64,000 nucleotides of DNA, taken from contig NZ_MQWA01000001.1 in NCBI RefSeq assembly GCF_002954445.1, positions 3,505,156 through 3,569,155 of the forward strand, read 5' to 3'. Under the pieces are notes generated by a model. It worked only from the letters and a program-made list of their open reading frames with translations. It was not told where the DNA came from and ran no database searches. This document shows positions 25,726 through 27,277 of this stretch, piece by piece (within the stretch, counting starts at the first letter, position 1; each line of letters opens with the position of its first letter). Source of the DNA: Rubritalea profundi. Its GTDB lineage: Bacteria > Verrucomicrobiota > Verrucomicrobiia > Verrucomicrobiales > Akkermansiaceae. Made by a program: the position numbers and the translations under genes.

Positions 25726-27114
25726 CTAGTCTTCGATCGAATCGACTATAGGCGTGCCGTAGAGAGTGAAGCCGGTGCAGGCGTGAATCTTCGTTTTGAA
25801 GATCTTGCCCACTAGACGGTCTGAGTTGCCCTCGATGATGACAATTTTGTTCTGCCCCGTGCGTGAGTTGAGTGTGTCTGGGTTATTCTTAGATGGCCCA
25901 GTACAGAGCACTTCTTGAACGGTTCCTACTAGTGCGTGGTTCGTGCGCTGGGCGACTTCGTCGACCAAGGCGAGAAGGACTTGGTTTCGCTTCTCTTTGA
26001 TTAGCTCAGGGATTTGATCCAGCCTTTCCGCAGCAGGTGTGTTGCGGCGTTCTGAGTAGCGATAGACAAAAGCATTGTCGAACTGGAGCTGCTCCATGGT
26101 GTCGAAAGTTTGCTGGAATTCCTCGTCAGTCTCACTCGGGAAGCCAACGATGACGTCGGTGGTGACTGACATCTCTGGACGCACCGCTTTGATTTTCTCA
26201 ATGATATCGATAAACTTCGCGTTCTTGTACGGCCGGCGCATTTGTTTCAGTACTCGGTCGCTGCCACTTTGCATTGGGAAGTGAATGTGGGAACACAGCT
26301 TAGGCAGGTAGCCATACGCTGATATTAAGTCATCGCGGAAACCGATCGGGTGGGGCGAGGTGAAGCGGATGCGCTTGATCCCATCGATCGCATGCACTGC
26401 TTCGAGCAGCTGGACGAATGGTGACTTACCATCGACCTTTGGAAATTCTGTACGACCGTAGAGGTTGACGATCTGGCCAAGCAAAGTGACTTCTTTCACA
26501 CCACGTTCGGCGAGGGTCTCACATTCTCTCACAATGTCAGCGATCGGCCGGCCACGCTCGCGGCCACGGGTGTCGGGCACGATGCAGTAGGAACACTTCA
26601 TGTTGCAGCCCTGCATGATTGAGACGAAAGCTGTCGGGTCAGTCGTCGTATTGACGTGATCCTTGATCGTGTTCTGAGAGTCCTTTTCCTCCTCGATGTC
26701 GCAAATATTGTCGCCCTTGTAAGTCAGCTTGAGATCATCCATTCGGCGCTCAAGTCTGTCTTGCAGGATACTATTCACATATTCAAAGACCTTGTGGTAC
26801 TTCTGGGTTCCAACTACCACATCGAGGTGGGGGATGTTTTGGAACAACTCGGAGCCGCGCGACTGAGCCATGCAGCCCATGAAGCCATAGACCACGTGTG
26901 GTTTACGCTGACGGTGCGCGCCCATGTGGCCCATTTTCCCCAGTGCCTTTTGCTCAGCTTGATCGCGAACCGAGCAAGTGTTGACAAGGATAGCATCTGC
27001 ATCGAATTCATCTTTGGTGACCGTGTATCCACCTTCCGTAAACATCCGAGCAACCTGCTCAGAATCACGTTCGTTCATTTGTCATCCGTAAGTTTTGATA
27101 AATACGTTGGGCAT
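25726..27114 (-). CDS. miaB: tRNA methylthiotransferase MiaB with in-frame TGA at codon 11
   Basis: This radical-SAM enzyme adds methylthio to i6A37 of tRNAs. Visible are the MTTase domain (TCSVRDQAEQKALGKMG and FMGCMAQS), the SAM cluster motif MQGCNMKCSYCIVPDTRG, and a C-terminal TRAM domain (NKIVIIEGN, then LVGKIFKTKIHA). The canonical N-terminus MPNVFIKTYG-C-QMNERDSEQ is encoded from ATG 27114 (AAAGGA nearby), but the Cys codon is TGA at 27084-27082. That Cys is one of three ligands of the auxiliary [4Fe-4S] cluster. If TGA terminates, translation from ATG 27078 gives 450 residues lacking the ligand. Candidates are error, damage or selenocysteine; a 7-bp G-loop hairpin lies at 27046-27062. 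Confidence 0.93.
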
Positions 27115-27277
27115 CGGTTTGTTATCCTTTTAGGGTGAATGAGATAGCGCATTTCATCGTGAAACACCTAGATCGGGGTCGATGTCATAGCTAGGATTAT
27201 ACGGATTGCAAGTGGATTGAAGGCTTGTCACCACTAACATTCATGTCTAGCTTTGCACCGCAATCCCAGCACCCAAC

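Follow-up and report, generated by a model that had tools for sequence, protein, structure and literature searches.

A predicted selenocysteine codon at the first auxiliary-cluster position of MiaB in Rubritalea and related marine bacteria

The miaB locus of Rubritalea profundi

The window analysed here is a stretch of 64,000 nucleotides from the genome of Rubritalea profundi (NZ_MQWA01000001.1, positions 3,505,156 to 3,569,155). Its minus strand carries, at 25726-27114, the miaB gene, an ORF of 462 codons plus the stop. The frame begins MPNVFIKTYG-TGA-QMNERDSEQ, codon 11 being the lone in-frame TGA, after which it stays open until a TAG. The features of the locus, all on the minus strand and numbered along the window, are the following.

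25726-27114, minus strand: miaB, tRNA i6A37 methylthiotransferase, read through one UGA (translation with TGA as U, TIGR01574, Pfam, 7mjv)
27125-27130, minus strand: Shine-Dalgarno-like AAAGGA, 10 nt 5' of the ATG (sequence)
27082-27084, minus strand: UGA codon 11, predicted Sec11 at the position of the first auxiliary-cluster Cys (alignment to 7mjv and 18 Cys homologues)
27045-27063, minus strand: SECIS-like hairpin with an 8-bp stem and a GGU apical loop at 27053-27055 (folding, conservation)
26974-26976, minus strand: Cys47 codon (NTCSV), second auxiliary-cluster ligand (alignment to 7mjv)
26872-26874, minus strand: Cys81 codon (MGCMA), third auxiliary-cluster ligand (alignment to 7mjv)
26584-26607, minus strand: radical-SAM CxxxCxxC motif, Cys170, 174 and 177 (PF04055 match)

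The protein scores 462 bits against the TIGR01574 model, above its cut-off of 355.3, and harbors the Pfam domains UPF0004, Radical_SAM and TRAM. It matches the solved MiaB structure 7mjv over its full length (E 3e-90), and in this alignment codon 11 falls on the Cys of YGCQMN. A preliminary description of this DNA had placed an in-frame TGA at the first cluster-ligating Cys of MiaB, in a frame opened by an ATG with AAAGGA upstream and with the other two ligands present, and all of this is borne out. Together with codon 11, Cys47 and Cys81 give the spacing CX35CX33C, which is the motif of the auxiliary (UPF) [4Fe-4S] cluster in methylthiotransferases (PMC5352715). Compared with the pattern of a three-Cys auxiliary cluster (CX35-36CX32-33C), the spacing is exact, but only the second and third ligands are Cys; a UGA stands for the first, so that the set of three Cys is incomplete. 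The radical-SAM CxxxCxxC motif is unbroken, and the same genome encodes MiaA, the enzyme that supplies the i6A substrate. As a separate observation, the canonical MiaB motif GQNVNSY reads GQIVNLYG here (window ~26470-26455, minus strand), a difference found in every verrucomicrobial MiaB examined, whether of the Sec or the Cys form.

Codon 11 in other genomes

miaB was found in 11 genomes of the genus; in 10 of these codon 11 is TGA, with the frame intact, and in the remaining one (G006) it is TGC. Within the genus the TGA-containing genes share 73-81% identity across independently sequenced genomes, and the same arrangement occurs in the more distant relatives G012, G018 and G019. A scan of ~85,000 species genomes (GTDB) with an exact pattern retrieved 64 matching stretches, 59 of them verrucomicrobial and 5 scattered in other phyla. 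The 59 records come from Rubritalea, Roseibacillus, Akkermansiaceae and others, and include the cultured species Rubritalea marina DSM 17716; one is titled only 'Bacterium', and the tree places it among the verrucomicrobial records. Neither TAA nor TAG was seen at codon 11, including in a pattern scan of 388 genomes in the phylum. The 18 Cys homologues have TGC (16) or TGT (2) at this codon, and no other residue is exchanged with TGA. A candidate 'TAG inside' the miaB of three relatives was rejected, as codon 11 is TGC or TGT there and the TAG is the terminal stop of those genes.

The nine codons that precede the TGA were compared among the 59 distinct TGA genes, and their pairwise difference is 1.6% at positions 1 and 2 and 50% at position 3. 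This conservation of positions 1 and 2 relative to position 3 indicates purifying selection on the protein, and hence that the ribosome reads through the UGA. An in-frame UGA is thus found aligned to the Cys of homologues, with the frame conserved on both sides, as is expected of a selenoprotein gene.

The preliminary description had preferred a simpler account, in which the codon is really TGC and the TGA is a sequencing error, or the gene is dead through a recent lesion such as a C-to-A change. The consensus may indeed contain errors, given a 1-nt frameshift in selB of the same assembly, and the five isolated TGA matches in other phyla resemble errors or decay. These five, from Elusimicrobia (L063, L074), Hyphomicrobiales (L069), Terriglobus (L083) and Omnitrophota (L049), are MAGs with no selB over the cut-off and no strong SECIS, and in three of them the frame closes soon after the TGA; they are probably errors or decaying genes, and they offer a picture of what error looks like. 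In the verrucomicrobial group, on the other hand, dozens of independent genomes share the TGA, and never TAA or TAG, in intact frames under purifying selection and with a conserved hairpin. An error or lesion is refuted by these relatives, and the probability left to it is minimal. The two Elusimicrobia, for their part, have an isolated miaB TGA in common.

It could also be argued that the UGA is a true stop and that a short MiaB, devoid of the first cluster ligand, is made from the ATG two codons later (27078). This ATG lies 3 nt past the UGA, so that re-initiation is possible, but it belongs to the QMN motif, which is universal, Cys forms included. The short protein would lose the first beta strand and a cluster Cys that is otherwise invariant in the family, and a stop at codon 11 would leave the SECIS and the link to the Sec machinery unexplained. 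Moreover, the codons 5' of the UGA evolve as coding sequence, and the purifying selection on them argues that the short form is not the main product. A true stop is therefore considered very unlikely.

A further feature of this region is the Gly codon immediately 5' of the UGA (window 27085-27087), which is GGA or GGG in 59/59 Sec genes, whereas Cys genes often use GGT or GGC; the 5' context may influence how the UGA is decoded.

The downstream hairpin and the selenocysteine machinery

The hairpin at 27045-27063 has an 8-bp stem and a GGU loop of 3 nt located 26 nt after the UGA; its MFE is -10.3 kcal/mol (z = -4.25), and none of 200 shuffled sequences folds as well. The preliminary description had reported a hairpin with a GGT loop, which is real, and a stem of 7 bp, which is one pair too short. 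Its placing of the hairpin within the range of a bacterial SECIS also holds, since all these values agree with the published bSECIS model (G at position 1 or 2 of a 3-9-nt loop, stem of 4-16 bp, 16-37 nt from the UGA, MFE <= -7.5).

The structure is conserved among the Sec genes (59 distinct), all of which have the GGT loop and form 7-8 of the 8 pairs, pair 6 of the stem exchanging between U-A, U-G and C-G. The Cys homologues (n=18) form 2-7 pairs, mostly 3-5, and their loop is often AGT; the median energy is -10.3 kcal/mol in the Sec genes versus -2.3 kcal/mol in the Cys genes. Folded alone, ten of the 59 Sec-gene hairpins are weaker than -7.5 kcal/mol, owing to a single A-C mismatch or to a closing pair that is A-G or A-C. 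Hairpins were assessed by direct folding, as a mismatch-free SECIS finder overlooks stems with one A-C mismatch. Of 71 conserved columns, the six with the most restricted codon use include codons 7-11 past the UGA, and codon choice at these five differs between Sec and Cys genes with Fisher p values of 3e-7 to 5e-11, which are indicative only, since the genes are related. The scan pattern left out the hairpin region, so that its conservation was not selected by the scan, and the conservation of the UGA and hairpin across dozens of species takes their combination far beyond chance.

The absence of selenocysteine machinery had been named beforehand as an outcome that would speak against Sec, and the machinery is present. 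The R. profundi genome carries a tRNA-Sec (49.6 bits, cut-off 47; anticodon TCA according to ARAGORN) and encodes SelA, SelB and SelD, the set expected for selenoprotein synthesis. In this assembly selB lacks one base and so falls into two parts (L136:9860-9890, G000:C1 near 1,021,860), the two halves of the product being 78% and 57% identical to SelB of R. marina; selB is intact in relatives, and the split may be either an assembly error or a recent loss. SelD (G000:C1:4054761-4055690, L168) has an in-frame TGA of its own at CGGU-ASKL, also found in relatives and followed by a hairpin with an (A/G)GU loop. SelD being Sec-encoded, this genome has a second gene in which UGA specifies Sec, and Sec-SelD is the best internal control for UGA as Sec in R. 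profundi.

Among 36 genomes, SelA was detected in 12/13 with TGA-miaB versus 7/23 others (p 0.0004), and SelB in 12/13 versus 8/23 (p 0.001). The two exceptions are G007, where SelB was not detected and SelA, SelD and tRNA-Sec are present, and G008 (83% complete), where SelA was not detected and SelB and SelD are present. No Sec-MiaB genome devoid of any trace of the Sec system was found among the TGA-miaB genomes examined.

UGA read-through by routes other than Sec insertion is known in bacteria, and the codon could be decoded as another residue, either near-cognate Trp or Cys through a suppressor tRNA. All exchanges at this codon, however, are with Cys, UGA is the ordinary stop of 5/33 long ORFs in the window, and the dedicated hairpin, SelB, SelA, tRNA-Sec and Sec-SelD point to Sec, so that such decoding is highly improbable.

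The evolution of the codon was followed on a protein tree of 74 MiaB sequences with codon 11 masked. It implies 7 changes between Sec and Cys, at least 5 of which are forced by well-supported branches. Two genomes, G006 (L021) and G022 (L027), have a Cys-MiaB amid Sec relatives; both have kept SelA, SelB and Sec-SelD and have lost the miaB hairpin, and on these sequence grounds they are recent Sec-to-Cys switches. A close strain with TGC had been anticipated as evidence against Sec, and one genome of the genus, G006, does have it; as nine other relatives keep the TGA and the G006 hairpin is lost, this TGC is best read as such a switch and not as the correction of an error. L090 (JAHDID010000022.1), from another family of the order, has a Sec-MiaB with the same SECIS among Cys forms and SelB in its genome, and represents either an independent gain or a transfer of the 5' end. 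A search for other MiaB residues that vary with the Sec/Cys switch found none.

Proposed function and comparison with known systems

Sec insertion at the miaB UGA, which the preliminary description had raised as a reading, is strongly supported in Rubritalea and related marine bacteria by the comparative evidence of the conserved TGA, the hairpin and the machinery. It is very probable that UGA 11 is a Sec codon decoded through SelB and the hairpin, yielding a full-length MiaB with its cluster on Sec11, Cys47 and Cys81. The proposed model is that SelB, bound to the GGU-loop hairpin, would bring Sec-tRNA-Sec, produced via SelA and SelD, to codon 11. The full-length protein would then hold its auxiliary [4Fe-4S] cluster by one Sec and two Cys instead of three Cys, the role of Sec11 as a ligand being inferred from the alignment with the solved MiaB. 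With SAM, Sec-MiaB should still methylthiolate the i6A37 made by MiaA on tRNAs for UNN codons.

As for what Sec contributes, it may be guessed that the selenolate tunes the redox properties of the cluster, or resists irreversible oxidation in marine bacteria, in line with claims made for Sec at other metal sites. Alternatively, Sec could be inserted mainly for regulation, selenium supply throttling MiaB with no chemical advantage at the cluster. A checkpoint at codon 11 would act very early, Sec and Cys interchange with no other consistent changes in the protein, MiaB products tune the decoding of UNN codons, and tRNA-Sec carries the A36-A37-A38 target motif of MiaA. That Sec occupies exactly a metal-ligand position, and does so in many species, is nevertheless better explained by chemistry, and a mainly regulatory role is considered unlikely. 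A more speculative proposal, and a rather improbable one as a whole, combines both aspects: the methylthio-donating cluster would have Sec11 as a selenolate ligand, and Sec11 would also tie MiaB translation to selenium, the enzyme modifying UNN-reading tRNAs and possibly tRNA-Sec, which in R. profundi has this A36-A37-A38 motif, so that selenium supply and UGA decoding would feed back on each other.

If the Sec reading is true, a selenoprotein family is added within a near-universal tRNA-modification enzyme, and a radical-SAM methylthiotransferase is predicted to bind its catalytic auxiliary cluster directly through Sec. The sulfur-donor chemistry of MiaB is debated, and Sec-MiaB would be a natural probe of it (77Se or 75Se, EPR, redox), directly testable in the cultured R. 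marina DSM 17716. Annotation that takes every TGA as a stop would truncate miaB across a group of marine bacteria.

MiaB is absent from the prokaryotic selenoprotein reviews, the deep-Sep paper and the marine selenoproteome studies in their open-licence main texts, and a search of the open-licence literature pairing selenoproteins with MiaB or methylthiotransferase returned only unrelated papers. No Sec-MiaB model is among the NCBIfam matches listed for the Rubritalea protein (June 2026). By these sources, the Sec form of MiaB appears to be a new selenoprotein family.

The Rubritalea protein resembles known MiaB (TIGR01574; solved structures 7mjv-7mjz) in its three domains, its radical-SAM motif, the second and third cluster Cys and its full-length alignment, and differs from it in having a UGA and a SECIS for the first auxiliary-cluster Cys. 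The preliminary description had regarded the replacement of a cluster Cys by Sec as new, which appears to be so for MiaB and is not so in general, as Fe-S selenoproteins such as HdrA, GlpC/Fe-S oxidoreductase-like and HesB-like have been reviewed (PMC13188914). These resemble Sec-MiaB in that their Sec lies at an iron-sulfur site or close to one, but their domains are unrelated and none is a radical-SAM methylthiotransferase. TIGR04167 (rSAM_SeCys) and TrsS (NF045646) are, like Sec-MiaB, selenoproteins of the radical-SAM superfamily, but they are different families, absent from the best 25 NCBIfam families listed for Rubritalea MiaB. Sec-SelD, finally, shares with miaB the UGA for a conserved Cys, the downstream hairpin, with its comparable (A/G)GU loop, and the same genomes; SelD, however, is a long-known selenoprotein, whereas MiaB is not listed as one.
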